Assembly (NCBI GenBank): GCA_021414085.1
Contig: JAIOPC010000011.1
Location: 1 to 64,000 of the forward strand
Direction: 5' to 3'
Length of the DNA: 64,000 nucleotides
Source of the DNA: Actinomycetes bacterium
GTDB lineage: Bacteria > Actinomycetota > Acidimicrobiia > Acidimicrobiales > Ilumatobacteraceae
Below, piece after piece: positions 56,201 to 64,000 of this stretch. The notes below the pieces were generated by a model. The model was not told the DNA's origin and did no database searches. It was given only the letters and a program-made list of their open reading frames with translations. Each line of letters opens with the position of its first letter. The first letter of the stretch is position 1. The position numbers were made by a program, and so were the translations under genes.

Positions 56201-57832
56201 CTAGCCCTCGAGGTTGTCGATGGCGAATTGCCGCGCCGCTTTGTAGTCGGCCTTGCCGTTCGCCGCGCGCGGTACTTGCTCGACGAACACGACTCGCTTC
56301 GGTGCTTTGTAGGCGGCCAAGTCGTGTTTGACCACTGCGATGACTTGCGCTTCTGTAACCACCGTGCCGACCGACACTGAGGCGACGGCTGTTACCACCT
56401 GGCCGAAGCGGTCGTCGTCGATGCCAATCACCAGGCAGTCGACAACGCCGTCGACGCGTTTGACCGCTTCCTCGACCTCCTCCGGAAAGATCTTCTCGCC
56501 ACCGGAGTTGATCACCTGGCTGCCGCGGCCGAGCAAGATGAGCGAGCCGTCGGCGGCCACCTGCGCCATATCGCCCGGGAATGAATAGCGCACGCCGTCG
56601 ATTGTGCGGAAGGTGTGCGCCGACTTGGCTTCGTCCTTGAAGTAGCCCAGCGGCACCATGCCGCCCGAGACCGCAACCATGCCGGTCTCGTCGGTACCCG
56701 GGGCGACTTCACGATCGTCGTCGGTGAACACTTTCGTGGTCGGGTTGCGCGTGAACTTGGCCGTGGCTGGCGGCACGCCCTTCATCGAGATGCTGGTGCC
56801 CATCGAGCCTTCGGAGGATCCGATCGCGTCGAGCAAGATGACGTGCTCAATTCGCTCGAGTAGTTGCTCCTTCACTTCGGCGGTCCACATCACGCCCGAC
56901 GAGATGATCATCTTCAGCTTGCTGAGGTCGTACGGCGTGCCGGCAGCGATCGCCCTATCGATGGCGGCGATGATCGGCTTGGCAAACGCGTCGCCGACGA
57001 TCGTCATGTTGGTGACTTCTTCGGCTTGCACGGTGCGCAGCACCTCATCGGCGTCGAGCGAGCGGCCCTGCAGCGTCACGACTTCGGCACCGCCAAGTTG
57101 AGGAATCATGACGCCCAGCCAGACGCCCGTGCCATGCATCAGCGGCGCACAAGACAGGCTGATCAGACGACCGCCAGCGTCGACGATGTTGCGGATCAAG
57201 GGTGCGATCTCGGCCGGGTCGACCGGCGGCGCCAGGCCAAGCAGCGGGAAGCCGAGCGCGGCAAACGCGCGGGTGAGGTCGCCCATGGCGTACATCACGC
57301 CCTTGGGCATGCCGGTGGTGCCACCGGTGTAGAGCATGTAGATGTCGCTCTCTTCGCGGACGATGCGCGGCATTGGCTGGTGAGCGCTGATCAAATCCTC
57401 GTAGTGCCTGGCACCCGCGACCTGGCCGGGGGCGCCGTCTTCGACCTCGATCAGCAGCTTTAGCTTTGGCAGCCGCCCGCGTATCCGCTCGACGCGATCG
57501 GCGAGCGATGAGTGAAAGACCAGCGCCTCGGCGTCGGCGTTGTCGAGCAGGTACACCAGTTCCTCGTCGATGTAGCGGTAGTTGACGTTGATTGGCACGC
57601 CGCGCATCTTGAAGGCCGCGTAGTGAGCCTCGAGGTACTCGTTTCCGTTGTAGAGGTAGAGCCCGATCTTGGAATCCGGGCCAAGGCCTGCTGCGGTAAA
57701 TGCAGCTGCGATGCGCGCCGCCCGATCGTCGTACTGGGCCCAGGTGAATCGGCGATCGCCATGCACGACCGCGGTGTACTCGGGCAATACATCGGCGATT
57801 GATTCCCAGATTGACGCGAAGTGGTATTCCAT
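56201..57832 (-). CDS. Acyl-CoA synthetase (AMP-forming)
   Basis: A 543-residue ANL-superfamily ligase. The AMP-binding P-loop is YMLYTGGTTGMPKGVMY, and the adenylate motif lies in the region of LLDAIGSSEGSMG. GDMAQVAADGSLILLGRGSQVINSGGEKIFPEEVE is the hinge in segments, and PRAANGKADYKAA carries the catalytic lysine. It resembles FadD-type enzymes for long-chain or sterol-derived acids. ATG 57832 follows AGG at 6 nt; an earlier ATG at 57862 would overlap the VOC gene by 20 bp. Confidence 0.93.
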   Translation of the reverse strand: MEYHFASIWESIADVLPEYTAVVHGDRRFTWAQYDDRAARIAAAFTAAGLGPDSKIGLYLYNGNEYLEAHYAAFKMRGVPINVNYRYIDEELVYLLDNADAEALVFHSSLADRVERIRGRLPKLKLLIEVEDGAPGQVAGARHYEDLISAHQPMPRIVREESDIYMLYTGGTTGMPKGVMYAMGDLTRAFAALGFPLLGLAPPVDPAEIAPLIRNIVDAGGRLISLSCAPLMHGTGVWLGVMIPQLGGAEVVTLQGRSLDADEVLRTVQAEEVTNMTIVGDAFAKPIIAAIDRAIAAGTPYDLSKLKMIISSGVMWTAEVKEQLLERIEHVILLDAIGSSEGSMGTSISMKGVPPATAKFTRNPTTKVFTDDDREVAPGTDETGMVAVSGGMVPLGYFKDEAKSAHTFRTIDGVRYSFPGDMAQVAADGSLILLGRGSQVINSGGEKIFPEEVEEAVKRVDGVVDCLVIGIDDDRFGQVVTAVASVSVGTVVTEAQVIAVVKHDLAAYKAPKRVVFVEQVPRAANGKADYKAARQFAIDNLEG

Positions 57833-57842
57833 CGACGCCTGT

Positions 57843-58340
57843 TTAGCCCAGGTCGTTGCCATACATGTGGCCGAGCGGATCGCTGATCAGCTCCAGGCGC
57901 TCGCCGTCAGGGCCACGGAAGTACAGCGATGATCCGTCGACGTGGGCGTACTCCACGCCGGCCTCGTCGAGGCGACCCTTCGCCGCCTCCCACTCCGGTC
58001 GGGTCATCGAGATCGCTAGGTGGTGATGGCCGCCCAACACTTCCCGGTACGGGTCGAGATCGAGACCAGGTAGGTCGAAGTAGGCAAGCGCGTTGCCATT
58101 GCCGATGTCGAAGAAGAAGTGTGTCGAGCCCTCGTAGTCGCGGTTCTCGAACATTTCAATCAGTGGGAAGCCGAGCAGGCCGTCGTAGAACTTGACCGTC
58201 CGCTCGACATCACTGCTGATGTGCGCTGCGTGGTGCACGCCGCGTGCGGTCGAGGCTGGTCGAACGGCACGCGGCTTCAGATAGCGGTTGCTCAGCTCGA
58301 CTCGTCGGGTAGCCAACTCGGAACGACTAGCCATGAGCAC
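57843..58340 (-). CDS. VOC family (glyoxalase / extradiol dioxygenase-like) protein
   Basis: A 165-residue metalloenzyme-fold protein. Metal-ligand candidates are the histidines in RGVHHAAHISSDVERTVKFY and LGGHHHLAISM, and the glutamate in GPDGERLELISDP. The paired beta-alpha-beta-beta-beta modules are evident. Substrate unknown; its place directly upstream of the acyl-CoA synthetase (gap 10 bp) suggests a catabolic step. ATG 58340 or 58334 may be the start. Confidence 0.85.
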   Translation of the reverse strand: MLMASRSELATRRVELSNRYLKPRAVRPASTARGVHHAAHISSDVERTVKFYDGLLGFPLIEMFENRDYEGSTHFFFDIGNGNALAYFDLPGLDLDPYREVLGGHHHLAISMTRPEWEAAKGRLDEAGVEYAHVDGSSLYFRGPDGERLELISDPLGHMYGNDLG

Positions 58341-58346
58341 ATTCCA

Positions 58347-60200
58347 TCACACTTTGGGCGTTTCGAAGCCCGCGACGCTTGCCCAGGTCGCCGGGCTGTC
58401 GAACCCGAGTGCCCAGAACGCGACCCCGCCAATTCGCTCCTCGCGAGCGAGATCCAGTCGTGCTCGACTTCCGGCCTCGTCGACGTAGTGCACTTCGCGC
58501 GCCTGCGTGCAGGTGCTGACGGCATCGGTGACCACCAACTGATACGTGAAGGTGACTTCCTTGTTGGTTTCGTCGGGAACAGGCGTGGCTTCGCGCTTCG
58601 CGATCAGTTCCTCGGCACTGCTGTGCGTGATTGGGACAGTTCCTTCCGCGTCGGCGGGACAGTTGCCAATCGTGCCGACCACCCAATTGCGACCGTACAG
58701 AGGTATCCCGAGCACCAACTTGCTGTCGTCGTCGACGGCTTTCTTCGCGGCGCGTATCGCGCCGCGAAGCCAGTTGATCGGCGCGATCGGTCCCGGCTCG
58801 TCGAACGAGTAGTCGTAGCCCATGATCCGGATGCGGTCCACAACTTCGCCCATTGCGGCGTAGTCGTAGACCCACCTGCCGCTGTCGGCGGTGCGCTTGG
58901 TGTCGTAAATCGGGGGCACGCTGACGGTCAACAGCTTGCCCTGCGCGTGCAGCGCAGTTGCCAGTTCGGTCACGAAGGCAACCCAGTTCGGTCGGGTGGT
59001 CTCCCACGTCGCGTAGTCGTCGACAAACGCGAAGCCCTCGTAGTCCAAATCGATGCCATCGAAGCCCCCGCTCGCGACGAGATCGACAATCGTCTGCACG
59101 TGGAGTGCACGGCTCGTCGGGTTGGCGAGCAGCGTCGCCATCTCGGTCTTCCCGAGGCCGTCGACGATCGAGGGGAGCACGCGAGTTCCGGTGGCGCGCG
59201 CGGTGTCGATGAGTGCTTGCATCGCCGACGGTTCGATGTTGCCAGTGACTGTGATGGCTGTGACACCCGTTGCCGCGTACCAAAAGGGCGATACCTCGTG
59301 CAGCACGCTGCCGTGCGCGGCGACTGACGCTGTCGCCTCGCCTAGCACCCAGTACGGCGCCCAGCCGCTAATCGGGATGTTCTCGAGTGGGGGAGGGTCG
59401 TCGCCGCTGGTCGCGACGATCACTCCTGCCGCGATGGCAGCGGCCGTCACGACGGCCGCGAGGATGCGGCGGGTGCGGTATGGGCTGGCCGGGCGCCGAC
59501 TGGCCGGGCGCCGACTGGCCGGCGACTCGGCGGGCAAGCCGAGAGCTGCGCGATCGATTTCGTTCAGCGAACCGACGACGGTGTAGCCGCGGCCCTCGGG
59601 AACATCGACCACGTTGGGCACTGCAAAAGTGCGACAACCCGCGGCGACCGCACTGCGTACCCCCGTGGGCGAGTCTTCGATGGCTACGCAATCCTGCGCG
59701 CGCACGCCGAGGGCGGCGGCGGCTGCCAAGTAGGGCTCGGGATGCGGCTTACCGTGGATCACTTCGTCACCAGTAATCACCACGTCGAACGAGCCTGGCG
59801 GCAGTGCACCGACGACCGCGTCGGCAAAACGACTCCAGCTCATGGTCACCAAGGCACATGGGATGCGTTGCTTGCGCAGAGCAATCAGCAGGGCGCGAGC
59901 TCCGGGGCGCCACGGCACCTTCTGTTGGACGCGCTCGATGACCCCGTCGAGCAGTCGGTTGACGATGTCGTCGATGGGCAGATCGACGCCACCCCTATCG
60001 CGCAGCACCGCAGCGGCATCGCGCAGGTCGAAGCCGACGAGCGAGCGTGCATGGTCGTCGCTCCAGTGACCCCCGTGTTCGGCGACCAGCGCGTACTCGG
60101 TAGCAATCCAGTACGGCTCGGTGTCGACCAGCGTGCCGTCCATATCCCACAGCACTGCCGCTGGCCGCGCTGCTCCGGAGTTCCTGGACGCAGCGCTCAT
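58347..60200 (-). CDS. HAD phosphatase - transmembrane helix - GH18 glycosidase-like fusion
   Basis: One uninterrupted 617-residue frame with two unrelated domains. Residues 12-220 are a HAD-family phosphatase of the beta-phosphoglucomutase type: DMDGTLVD (19-26), TMSWS, KPHPEP (151-156) and IEDSPTG. Residues 228-240 hold a RRPAS repeat, and 246-264 are a transmembrane helix. Residues 275-617 are a GH18 domain with FDGIDLDYEGF (Glu388 catalytic), MGYDYS and GIPLYGRNW. The topology predicts phosphatase inside and glycosidase outside. No frameshift or second ribosome binding site was found at the junction. Confidence 0.88.
   Translation of the reverse strand: MSAASRNSGAARPAAVLWDMDGTLVDTEPYWIATEYALVAEHGGHWSDDHARSLVGFDLRDAAAVLRDRGGVDLPIDDIVNRLLDGVIERVQQKVPWRPGARALLIALRKQRIPCALVTMSWSRFADAVVGALPPGSFDVVITGDEVIHGKPHPEPYLAAAAALGVRAQDCVAIEDSPTGVRSAVAAGCRTFAVPNVVDVPEGRGYTVVGSLNEIDRAALGLPAESPASRRPASRRPASPYRTRRILAAVVTAAAIAAGVIVATSGDDPPPLENIPISGWAPYWVLGEATASVAAHGSVLHEVSPFWYAATGVTAITVTGNIEPSAMQALIDTARATGTRVLPSIVDGLGKTEMATLLANPTSRALHVQTIVDLVASGGFDGIDLDYEGFAFVDDYATWETTRPNWVAFVTELATALHAQGKLLTVSVPPIYDTKRTADSGRWVYDYAAMGEVVDRIRIMGYDYSFDEPGPIAPINWLRGAIRAAKKAVDDDSKLVLGIPLYGRNWVVGTIGNCPADAEGTVPITHSSAEELIAKREATPVPDETNKEVTFTYQLVVTDAVSTCTQAREVHYVDEAGSRARLDLAREERIGGVAFWALGFDSPATWASVAGFETPKV
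59486..59526. repeat. 15-bp tandem repeat at the fusion junction
   Basis: TGGCCGGGCGCCGAC occurs twice in exact tandem (59486-59500, 59501-59515), followed by a shortened copy TGGCCGGCGAC (59516-59526). In the minus-strand gene it encodes the RRPAS repeats between the HAD domain and the membrane helix. Being a multiple of three, it keeps the frame. Confidence 0.85.
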
Positions 60201-60241: not shown

Positions 60242-60820
60242 TCAGCGCGAGCGCACCCAGAGCAGCAATGCGCTGCTCCACAGCACCTCGTATGAGACGT
60301 CGCGACCGTGTTTGTCGGAGAGGTCGAGGCGAAGCTCGCTGAACATGCGATCGAGGTGGAAGGGGATCGTCGACTGCACCAGTCGGCGCGCGCCGCTCTT
60401 GTCGCCGATCGTGCGCACTTCGTCGATCAGGTTCGGAATCTGGGCACGTTTCGCGATCAGTAACTCGAGGGCCTGGGTTGCGACCTCGTCCCATGTGATG
60501 CGGCGCTGTTGTTCGGCCTCCAGGCGCAGTTTGCGGCGGCGGGCCTCGCCGTGTAACTCGCGCGGCACAAGGTGACCGCGCAGGCGTCGGCCGGCCGCAC
60601 CGCGGCCGACCCGTGCGGGTGCCGGACGCGTAGCGGCGGCCACCGACGGCCGAGCTCGCGCAACGGGTGCCGCGGCTCGATTGCTCGCGGCGGCCGGACG
60701 TGACGGCGGTTTGGTCGGCGTGGCGCGCGTCTGCGTAGCGACGATTGCGCCGCGCGCCGGTGCCTGCTTCAGTCGTTGATCGAAGCGCTTCGCGAGATCT
60801 TCGCGTTTAGGTCCGGCCAC
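60242..60820 (-). CDS. Basic partner protein downstream of ParA (candidate DNA-binding ParB-like)
   Basis: A 192-residue protein. The first half is Arg/Ala/Pro-rich and probably disordered (RPAAASNRAAAPVARARPS). The second half is helical, with KLRLEAEQQRRITWDEVATQALELLIAKRAQI and a C-terminal helix ending LLLWVRSR. It lacks the standard ParB CTPase motifs. Partition operons often pair ParA with a small, unrelated centromere-binding protein, so that role is inferred from position. GTG 60820 was chosen; the frame is open to 60886, overlapping parA. Confidence 0.65.
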   Translation of the reverse strand: MAGPKREDLAKRFDQRLKQAPARGAIVATQTRATPTKPPSRPAAASNRAAAPVARARPSVAAATRPAPARVGRGAAGRRLRGHLVPRELHGEARRRKLRLEAEQQRRITWDEVATQALELLIAKRAQIPNLIDEVRTIGDKSGARRLVQSTIPFHLDRMFSELRLDLSDKHGRDVSYEVLWSSALLLWVRSR

Positions 60821-60852
60821 TACGTGGCCCCTGCCGTTGAAGTTCCGGCCAC

Positions 60853-61689
60853 TTACAGATCGACCTGCGGAACCGTGAAGCGCCAACCGCGCAGCTGGAT
60901 CAGTTCGTAAGCCACATGGCGGAACGCGACTGCCGCTCGTGCTCCGTGCTCGTAGGCGCCGACCGGAAGCCCGACGAGATGCGCCTCGCCGAAGCGAGCG
61001 TCTTCGGGCACCTTGTTGTGTAGGAGCGGCACGCCGTACTCCTCTGCGATCGTTCGAATCTGTTCTTCGGCGACACGCCGATACACGCTGTTGCCCCAGA
61101 TGCGGAGTTTGATGATTCCGTAGACCTCGGGCTGGCGGTAGGTCTCAGCGGCGGCGCGAATCGTGTTGAGGATGGTGGGAAGCTCGGTGACGGGGCCAGC
61201 CTCGGGAACCATCGGCACGATGACGCCATTGGAACGGCGCATCGCCGTCGACACCAATCGCGACTGATGCCCAGGCGTGTCGATCAGCACGATGTCCCAG
61301 CGATCGCGGGCCGTATCGATCAGCGTGTGAAACCGGTCGAGAATCTCCGGGTCGTCGATCTGTTCGCTCGCACTGCCCAGTGACAATTCCTCTGCAGGCA
61401 ACACGTCGAGGCCTGGGTGGACTTCGGTGATGAGCGCATCGTCGAGTTCCGCGTACCCGAGAAGAACGGCACCGACGTCGGTCTTGGAGTCGACCTCGCG
61501 TTCGCCGATGAACGCCGATTGCCCCGTCTGCTGATCGAGGTCGATCACGAGCACTCGGGCCCCGCACTCGGCGAGCGAGTACGCGAGGTTGAACGTCATC
61601 GTCGTCTTGCCGGCACCGCCCTTGGTGTGGGCGACGGTGATGATCTCGCCGAGGGGCTTCGCGGAGTACGGCGAACGGCCTGCGCCCAT
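60853..61689 (-). CDS. parA: ParA/MinD-family ATPase
   Basis: A 278-residue deviant Walker A ATPase. VAHTKGGAGKTTMTFNLAYSLAE carries the KGGxGKTT motif (about residues 24-31), VLVIDLDQQTGQSAF the A' region, and VLIDTPGHQSRLVSTAM the Walker B. Such proteins position plasmids, chromosomes or protein arrays. A Shine-Dalgarno, GAGAGG, precedes the ATG at 61689. A 24-bp AT-rich palindrome (61705-61728) lies just upstream. The dnaA/gidB/parB context of the chromosomal parA is absent, so this is a secondary ParA system. Confidence 0.88.
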   Translation of the reverse strand: MGAGRSPYSAKPLGEIITVAHTKGGAGKTTMTFNLAYSLAECGARVLVIDLDQQTGQSAFIGEREVDSKTDVGAVLLGYAELDDALITEVHPGLDVLPAEELSLGSASEQIDDPEILDRFHTLIDTARDRWDIVLIDTPGHQSRLVSTAMRRSNGVIVPMVPEAGPVTELPTILNTIRAAAETYRQPEVYGIIKLRIWGNSVYRRVAEEQIRTIAEEYGVPLLHNKVPEDARFGEAHLVGLPVGAYEHGARAAVAFRHVAYELIQLRGWRFTVPQVDL

Positions 61690-61879: not shown

Positions 61880-64000
61880 ATGAAAGCTCCACACGGTGTG
61901 CAAATGAACGATGTAGCGACCACCAGTCGGTCGCGCGTTGCACGTTCCGTGCTGGCAATGGCATTGCTCGTTTTCGGTCTTCCATTGGCAACGCTCATCC
62001 CAGCATCTGGAGTTGTTGAGGCGGATCCCGCTGCGAACGCGGCCAACGTCAGCCAGTCCACAACCGGTGCGCTCGCTGGTGGTTCCGTTCCCGACGGCAC
62101 TTGTCGCGCGCACATCACAGCCACCGGCGGCGGCGGCGCGTCGGGCGGACTCGCCGCCGCCAACGGCGGTCGTGGTGGTGCTGCAGCAACCATCGACGCA
62201 ACCGTTGCGGTGTTGCCCGGTCAGGCGTACTCGGGAAGCGTGGCTGGCGGGGGCCAGACGAACAGCACGGGTGGCGTCGGTGGCGGCGGTACCGGTGGAA
62301 CGATCGTTAACTTGCACCGTGGCGCCGGTGGTGGTGGTCGCTCTGTTGTCGCGATCGGTGGGCTCACACAAGTCGTCGCCGGTGGTGGTGGCGGCGGTGG
62401 CGCCGCACACAACGCGGGCACGCCGCTTCCCGGTAACGGTGGCGCAGCTGGTACCGCGGTCGGCGCGGGCACCGCTGGTGTTGGCGCGACCGGTACGAAC
62501 GGTGTCGACAACCCGGCAGGCAACGTTGTCGGCGCGGGACAGGGTGGACAGGCGGCTGCCGGTGGCGCCGGTGGAACGAACTCCGCCGCGGGCACGTTCG
62601 AAGACGGCCAGGCCGGTGGTGGCACAGCTACTGGTGTCGGTGGTAACGGCGGCCCGGATGCGAACTACGACTCCGCTGGCGGTGGTGGCGCTGGTTACAC
62701 AGGTGGTGGCGGTGGCGCCTCGACTGTTGGCGACACAGTGACTGGTGCTGGCGGCGGCGGTGGCTCCAGCTGGGTCGCGGCGACGTCACCGGTTGCGGCG
62801 GCCAACGTGCCGACCGGCATCGCCGGCGTCAACACTGCACAGACGGCGCAGAGCGCCAACGGCGCGAACGGATCGGTCACCATCGACTGGATTCCGTGCC
62901 AGTACGACCTGGTGATGACAAAGACGGTCTCGCCGACAACGATCAATGCTGGCGACCGCGCAACGTGGACAGTTTCGATCACGAACAACGGCCCCGACGC
63001 AATGACTCGCGGCGACACGATCAGCCTCGCTGACACGCTGCCGACAGGTCCGAACGCGGCGACACCGGGGCCGAGCTTCAACGTCACCTCGATCAGCACG
63101 TCCGGTGGATCGAACGCAAACTTGCTGAGCGGTGCGGTGACCTGCACCGGCCTCAGCGTTGGCTCATCGATGCCAGCCTCAACGGTCTGCACCCGTCCGT
63201 ACGCTCCGGCTGTCGGAACACCGGGCACACCGCCCGCGGCGAGCGGCACGCGCGGCCTCAACGTCGGCGAGACGCTGACCATCGTGTATCAGCAGGTCAT
63301 CTCCAACACCGCTCCTTGCGCAACCATCACCAACACAGCTACAAGCACCGATCGTCCGACCCTGACCGGCACGACCGACGTCGTCGGTGTCCCGACCCTG
63401 AACACAGTCTCGACACCGTTGGTCATCAATTGCTACGACCTGGCCGTGGCCAAGACCGTCAGCCCGACGCCTTTCGTTCAGCTCGGCGGCACGATCACTT
63501 GGACGATCACCGTGACCAACAACGGGCCCGGATCGATGAACGGCCCGATCGCTACCGTGGCCAACCCGTTGGTCGTGACCGACGTGTTCCCATCGACGAA
63601 TCTCAGTGCAGCCACGCTGACGGGTTCGACTGGTCCCGCGGGCGCGTGCACGCTCGTTGTCAGCACTGTGACGTGCGCTACCGGTTTGCCCGCGAGCGGG
63701 CAGCAGGTCCTGACGTTCACCCAGACGGTGTCGGGCAGCGCCGTCGATAGCGCCGTCGTCGCAAACACGGCAACCGTGAGCGACCCCAAGACCGGCGACT
63801 CGAACGACTCAAGCAGCGCTTCGACCATCGTGCATCACCCGCGAATCACGTTGAACAAGACGATTGTCAGCCGCGTGAACCCAGCCGACCAGTTCACGGT
63901 CCGCGTGGTGAACGGGGTCACGACGGTGGGCACGGCAACTACTGCTGGCGCCGGGCTGACCGCCTCGACCGGCGTCGTGTTGGCCGCCGGCGGGACCTAC
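61880..64000 (+). CDS. Large secreted glycine-rich / DUF11-repeat surface protein (partial)
   Basis: The frame runs open from ATG 61880 to the window end (707 residues so far). A signal peptide covers about residues 20-48 (VLAMALLVFGLPLATL). Residues about 70-310 are glycine-rich with many GGGG and GGAGG runs, like PF12810-type or PE_PGRS-like sequence. Then come DUF11 (CARDB/isopeptide-like) repeats starting YDLVMTKTVSPTTINAGDRATWTV and YDLAVAKTVSPTPFVQLGGTITWTI, and a further beta domain ITLNKTIVSRVNPADQF. Such proteins are large cell-wall or adhesin-like proteins. AAGG precedes the ATG. The C-terminal anchor is not visible. Confidence 0.9.
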   Translation, partial: MKAPHGVQMNDVATTSRSRVARSVLAMALLVFGLPLATLIPASGVVEADPAANAANVSQSTTGALAGGSVPDGTCRAHITATGGGGASGGLAAANGGRGGAAATIDATVAVLPGQAYSGSVAGGGQTNSTGGVGGGGTGGTIVNLHRGAGGGGRSVVAIGGLTQVVAGGGGGGGAAHNAGTPLPGNGGAAGTAVGAGTAGVGATGTNGVDNPAGNVVGAGQGGQAAAGGAGGTNSAAGTFEDGQAGGGTATGVGGNGGPDANYDSAGGGGAGYTGGGGGASTVGDTVTGAGGGGGSSWVAATSPVAAANVPTGIAGVNTAQTAQSANGANGSVTIDWIPCQYDLVMTKTVSPTTINAGDRATWTVSITNNGPDAMTRGDTISLADTLPTGPNAATPGPSFNVTSISTSGGSNANLLSGAVTCTGLSVGSSMPASTVCTRPYAPAVGTPGTPPAASGTRGLNVGETLTIVYQQVISNTAPCATITNTATSTDRPTLTGTTDVVGVPTLNTVSTPLVINCYDLAVAKTVSPTPFVQLGGTITWTITVTNNGPGSMNGPIATVANPLVVTDVFPSTNLSAATLTGSTGPAGACTLVVSTVTCATGLPASGQQVLTFTQTVSGSAVDSAVVANTATVSDPKTGDSNDSSSASTIVHHPRITLNKTIVSRVNPADQFTVRVVNGVTTVGTATTAGAGLTASTGVVLAAGGTY

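Follow-up and report, generated by a model that had tools for sequence, protein, structure and literature searches.

The window, that is, the whole stretch of 64,000 nucleotides analysed here, carries on its minus strand a single open reading frame (58347..60200; ATG start, 617 aa, no internal stops) in which a HAD-IA phosphatase is followed by a basic linker, one transmembrane helix and a GH18 glycosidase domain. This fusion is real, conserved and built from ordinary parts. We consider it moderately probable that it represents an old fusion between a soluble actinobacterial HAD-IA sugar phosphatase and a membrane-anchored GH18 that trims the cell's own wall, where both the substrates and the topology are predicted. 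A preliminary description had read the frame as a genuine single polypeptide with complete HAD motifs and an intact DGIDLDYE motif, and had taken the layout to be undescribed. The reading frame, the Pfam matches and the AlphaFold model all agree with a single polypeptide, every one of the motifs is present, an in-frame stop, which would have spoken against the fusion, was found in another genome (G203) and not in the window, and no report of such a layout was found in the open-access literature as judged by titles and abstracts. The window genome is a 3.2-Mb draft of 18 contigs that is 97.3% complete. The AlphaFold2 model of the 617-aa protein, for which the 31 fused proteins described below served as the input alignment, has a mean pLDDT of 88.2 and a pTM of 0.58 and consists of two folded domains with a helix between them (HAD to approximately residue 222, helix at 243-264, GH18 from approximately 277).

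The HAD domain covers approximately residues 13-222 (59535..60164, minus strand), as delimited by Pfam, NCBIfam, motifs and the AlphaFold model, and is predicted to be cytoplasmic. It matches Pfam HAD_2 (PF13419) at residues 16-194 with an E-value of 1.9e-29, above the curated cut-off, and passes the subfamily model TIGR01509 with 62.8 bits for a cut-off of 29.4. Motifs I to IV, by which membership of HAD-IA is recognised (DxDGT, S/T, K and an acidic pair), appear in the window protein as DMDGT (from residue 19), VTMS (118), GKP (150) and EDSPTG (175). In an alignment of 51 rows, T119, K151, E175 and D176 are kept throughout, and D19 and D21 are kept in all 50 rows having the residue, one row being without this part. 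Among the best 25 of 32 NCBIfam matches, the domain lies below all equivalog cut-offs; it scores 99.4 bits against the 191 needed for HxpB (NF008087) and 56.5 bits against the 359 needed for MupP, the N-acetylmuramic acid 6-phosphate phosphatase. By sequence resemblance, the domain seems closest to sugar- and hexitol-phosphate phosphatases, which makes such compounds its putative substrates. The window genome has three HAD_2 matches, with that of the fusion being the strongest by far.

The GH18 domain extends over approximately residues 277-611 (58368..59372, minus strand) according to Pfam, the alignment, AlphaFold and Foldseek. Its match to Pfam Glyco_hydro_18 (PF00704) at residues 333-601 has an E-value of 2.4e-25, above the curated cut-off, and the domain combines the DxxDxDxE signature, including the presumed catalytic glutamate, with a chitinase-type fold. 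Within DGIDLDYE (residues 381-388), E388 is presumed to be the catalytic acid and is kept in all 51 rows, followed by D384 (50 of 51, one gap) and D386 (49 of 51), while the first aspartate of the motif, D381, is kept in 44 rows and replaced in seven. When this part of the model was compared to the PDB using Foldseek, the best matches were the chitinase-type entries 4wiw and 5jh8, and SleL (4s3k/4s3j) and YdhD (3cz8) were also found. The initial comparison of the domain to spore-cortex and chitinase-type hydrolases is thus upheld, chitinase-type proteins and SleL being the nearest solved folds. No LysM domain was found in the fusion protein using Pfam at E 0.001. In a search of the whole window genome, the domain of the fusion was the only GH18 match found. 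Elsewhere in the family, other GH18s (L142, L143, L145, L146, L148 and L149) reside in open frames of 687-1015 aa, for which Pfam reports few matches apart from GH18.

We searched 221 genomes of the family Ilumatobacteraceae with a match threshold of E 1e-20 and obtained a match in 110. Both parts were classified as being together in 51 genomes, of which at least 31 have a stop-free fusion, at least 19 have the two genes as neighbours on the same strand, and one (G203) has an interrupted frame; the fused and adjacent counts are lower bounds since loci on broken contigs were left out. Accordingly, the fused class excludes G198, whose HAD lies at the end of a contig, and G190, which shows the GH18 part alone; it does include L150 (G130), a locus truncated by the end of its contig and missing the first half of the HAD. 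The architecture is therefore found in 30 family genomes other than that of the window, whose fusion proteins are 45-71% identical to that of the window, and the relatives do not always keep HAD and GH18 as separate genes. The 31 fused genomes span 11 of the 27 genus codes (g1, g4, g5, g7, g11, g15, g16, g18, g19, g20 and g21). An assembly or annotation artefact could be suspected because the relatives are mostly draft genomes and the frame of G203 contains a stop. However, at least 31 genomes have the fusion, two of them (G102 and G109) being assembled in one contig each, and both the conserved residues and the dN/dS values given below lie on either side of the join. We rejected this explanation, which is already contradicted for the family and whose probability is practically negligible.

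Among the matches listed, we counted by hand the 79 family genomes with a completeness of 90% or more and a contamination of 5% or less. This gave 24 fused, 1 interrupted, 7 adjacent, 6 with the parts apart, 11 with HAD only, 5 with GH18-like only and 25 without a match at 1e-20; few candidates were scored in each genome, and these tallies vary with that number and with the threshold. G111 has the HAD and a GH18 of the partner clade on the same contig but at a large distance, and G112 has them on separate contigs; in the apart group, L140 (G208) and L052 (with match coordinates as G207) represent another GH18 clade, the clade placement having been made without G205 and G206. Outside the family, no match spanning both parts was found in a draw of 394 genomes of the class or, among the matches listed, in 396 genomes of the phylum (family members included in each), draws that could miss fusions with a very divergent GH18 and in which long open frames enclosing some of the HAD matches outside the family (e.g. 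G319, 852 aa) were left out. HAD relatives without a GH18 match occur across other Actinomycetota, and the HAD tree contains 66 HAD-only rows, some of them from the family and one of them (L047) a contig-end case.

The two domains are separated by a basic linker at approximately residues 223-242 (59475..59534, minus strand), seen in the K/R counts and in pLDDT values below 50 at 227-245. Within the linker lies a 15-bp tandem repeat (59485..59522, minus strand; 2.5 copies, 100% match), which codes for SRRPA units as read by eye. The preliminary description had suggested that this repeat might mark how the two genes fused. We rejected the repeat as a fusion scar: it sits in a variable linker, the fusion is present in at least 31 genomes of 11 genus codes, and SRRPA units are absent by eye from the protein linkers of the nearest relatives (L002, L003 and L031-L033, the latter being genes of L004-L006). 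The repeat appears to be a local expansion inside a fast-changing linker. Across the 31 fused proteins, the distance from the HAD to the hydrophobic stretch varies from 13 to 80 residues.

The transmembrane helix itself is placed at residues 243-264 (59409..59474, minus strand) in the AlphaFold model. Hydropathy and K/R counts predict that its N-terminal side is inside and its C-terminal side is outside, in agreement with the earlier proposal of an intracellular phosphatase and an extracellular glycosidase. In the window protein, 6 K/R are found in the 15 residues preceding the hydrophobic stretch and none in the 15 beyond it. A hydrophobic stretch of 19 residues between the domains is present in 31 of 31 fused proteins (mean hydropathy 1.65-3.15), with 2-8 K/R among the 15 preceding residues and 0-2 among the 15 that follow. 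The count before exceeds the count after in every one of the 31, from which the N-inside, C-outside orientation is predicted, the narrowest margins being 2 vs 1 in L030 and L117 and 3 vs 2 in L007. All 31 are thus predicted to be type II single-pass proteins, having one helix with a basic inner side. The anchor may be cleaved, and cleavage by a signal peptidase would release the GH18 from the HAD. Beyond the helix, 4 of the 31 fused proteins, the window protein not among them, have a strict AxA site, and 19 of the 31, this time with the window protein, show a looser signal-peptidase-like pattern. This looser pattern lowers our confidence in the favoured explanation.

In single genomes, a separate GH18 may also arise from an internal start. 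In the interval from approximately 15 residues before the end of the HAD to the helix, 24 of the 31 fused genes have an ATG, GTG or TTG codon, and the window gene has one TTG there. However, the positions of these codons are scattered, a Shine-Dalgarno-like stretch was found only in L027, and 7 of the 31 have no candidate codon.

For eight pairs of fused genes, dN/dS was 0.03-0.26 in the HAD, 0.10-0.31 in the GH18 and 0.15-0.91 in the intervening stretch; the values are rough, as several pairs have a dS close to 1 or higher, and the pairs overlap in part (some share a member) and one has just 103 HAD codons. Purifying selection acts on both HAD and GH18, and the linker drifts.

In the GH18 tree, the 51 linked GH18s and those of G111 and G112 form a single clade that excludes ten other GH18s. 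Using these ten rows as the rooting outgroup, and with genomes that are mostly draft, parsimony with equal costs requires 3 changes for a fused root vs 5 for a split root when G203 is counted as fused, and 4 vs 6 when it is counted as split. With the cost of fission doubled the numbers are 6 (fused root) vs 8 (split root), and the fused root is favoured with either direction doubled. A more careful tree again gave 3 vs 5; the fused root was the less costly one on all 1000 bootstrap trees, in 998 of which the ingroup was monophyletic. The concatenated tree, with G203 as split, requires at least 5 changes, and the long rows L023 and L121 are placed with uncertainty in the trees. The fused state is thus probably ancestral in the family, and the split pairs look like later fissions. 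An ancestral adjacent pair that fused several times was rejected due to the rooted parsimony (3 vs 5, or 4 vs 6).

The split loci differ in form. All 19 true split pairs have a GH18 with its own N-terminal helix. In one clade of seven (L048, L049, L118, L120, L122, L123 and L125), the HAD and GH18 genes lie in different frames and overlap by 13 nt (GH18 ATG and HAD stop), which suggests translational coupling. In L013, L014, L051, L126 and L127, HAD and GH18 are in the same frame with a stop between them. The interrupted locus of the window's own genus (L012, G203) has an in-frame TAG between the helix and the GH18 and no start codon ahead of the GH18 match; this TAG may be a sequencing error or a recent break. 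The repeated splitting of the pair speaks against an essential role of the tie, and the separation in G111 and G112 together with the 11 HAD-only genomes of the 79 (among the matches listed) indicates that the linkage is dispensable. Alternatively, the domains could be selected separately and the tie itself have no effect: the linker is weakly constrained (0.15-0.91 above), several lineages have split the pair, and the split GH18 brings its own anchor. We regard this near-neutral fusion as possible if doubtful, since at least 31 genomes of 11 genus codes still have the two parts fused and fusion is the favoured ancestral state, whereas a purely neutral state might disappear more often.

The genes around the fusion were considered as a guide to the HAD substrate and gave no lead. 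Directly downstream is a VOC/glyoxalase gene (57843..58340, minus strand), with a downstream homologue in 10 of the 31 fused loci, and further downstream an AMP-binding ligase gene (56201..57862, minus strand), with a homologue in 8 of 31, both counts being based mostly on short flanks. Just upstream, at 60242-61689 on the minus strand, are a ParA/MinD-like ATPase gene and an overlapping gene of 214 aa. The latter has no Pfam or NCBIfam match at 0.001, and homologues of the two were found in none of the others among the 31 fused loci (mostly with 1.5-kb flanks) and the 20 adjacent loci. At 61880-64000 on the plus strand, a large open frame leaves the window; by eye it encodes a glycine-rich stretch followed by DUF11-like surface repeats. 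With the same mostly 1.5-kb flanks for the fused loci, methylmalonyl-CoA epimerase has an upstream homologue in 16 of the 31 fused loci and in 10 of the 20 adjacent ones, and for crotonyl-CoA reductase the counts are 9 of 31 and 16 of 20. The HAD-only loci (L047 and L053-L110, 57 in the tree, some of which are family members) are flanked by a metH homologue in 39 of 57 cases, 30 upstream on the same strand and 9 downstream on the opposite strand, and in 37 of 57 the opposite strand carries a PAC2 homologue upstream. The MetH activation domain was not found in the window genome.

With regard to the role of the glycosidase, GH20 was not found in the window genome, and NagA gave weak partial matches with none above cut-off. 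This makes chitin use unlikely, and chitin catabolism was set aside as the main role. An anchored GH18 that is the only one found, in a genome where these markers of chitin catabolism were not found, would fit a role on the cell's own wall as a SleL-type glucosaminidase, SleL being tabulated as a glucosaminidase (PMC10653849). The top structural matches, 4wiw and 5jh8, are of chitinase type, so the substrate may be something other than peptidoglycan. In the explanation we favour, the HAD would remain in the cytoplasm, connected by the basic linker to the signal anchor, and the tethered GH18 outside would cut GlcNAc linkages of the cell's own wall. The HAD, held at the membrane by the fusion, would hydrolyse small phosphorylated sugars in the cytosol. 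The tie would most likely provide shared expression and location and not substrate channelling, considering that a membrane lies between the predicted active sites and that the pair is split in several lineages.

A closer metabolic link would be one of wall recycling, in which sugars released by the GH18 are imported, phosphorylated and then dephosphorylated by the tethered HAD. The resemblance of the HAD to sugar-phosphate phosphatases, including the sub-cut-off MupP match (56.5 vs 359 bits), is in line with it, as is the finding that the two genes adjoin even where they are unfused (19 genomes). We nevertheless find it quite unlikely: NagA is below cut-off in the window genome, HAD relatives occur without GH18 in other Actinomycetota with the metH homologue in the flank of 39 of 57 HAD-only loci, and the two parts lie away from each other in G111 and, on different contigs, in G112. 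Regulatory coupling, where the HAD would sense a cytosolic sugar phosphate and alter the action or placement of the GH18 across the membrane, draws on the predicted attachment of both domains to one helix. It is highly improbable given that the HAD retains its catalytic residues, as an enzyme would, that 13-80 residues separate the HAD from the hydrophobic stretch, and that splits are tolerated. More generally, an ancestral transmembrane bifunctional enzyme of Ilumatobacteraceae, with wall glycan cleavage outside and sugar-phosphate dephosphorylation inside being functionally coupled by way of the single helix and the tie later loosened in several lineages into overlapping or neighbouring genes, seems unlikely. 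The statement in the preliminary description that the protein couples a phosphatase to a glycosidase holds as far as physical and genetic linkage is concerned.

Fusions usually unite enzymes of the same pathway within one compartment. Here, a conserved fusion sets two unrelated hydrolases on what are predicted to be opposite sides of a membrane. A single family with fused, overlapping, adjacent and separated states provides a natural series for testing the purpose of a fusion, and the fusion gene is one candidate for the trimming of wall glycans in aquatic actinobacteria, which have been little studied.

Compared to known systems, the window GH18 has the fold and the DxxDxDxE-type active site in common with SleL/YaaH (4s3k, 4s3j) and YdhD (3cz8). 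N-terminal LysM domains are typical of SleL/YaaH cortex-lytic enzymes, whereas the window protein is without LysM at E 0.001 and has a helix bearing a HAD instead. The host of the window fusion is not known as a spore former. The chitinase-type proteins 4wiw and 5jh8 have the highest fold likeness to the window GH18, and their entry titles mention no HAD partner. On the other side of the helix, the HAD motifs are common to the window protein and the HAD-IA phosphatases that resemble HxpB and beta-phosphoglucomutase (PF13419; TIGR01509; HxpB NF008087; TM_1254, 3kbb); unlike in these enzymes, the window HAD is fused to a helix and a GH18, and it stays below the equivalog cut-offs among the best 25 of 32 matches. 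Acinetobacter MtlD (7oct and others), whose entries were among the HAD-bearing Foldseek matches of the fusion model in the PDB, is a natural two-enzyme protein that also has a HAD-IA phosphatase towards its N-terminus. According to the entry titles, its partner is mannitol-1-phosphate dehydrogenase and both parts belong to one pathway, whereas the two parts of the window fusion are predicted to work across a membrane from each other.
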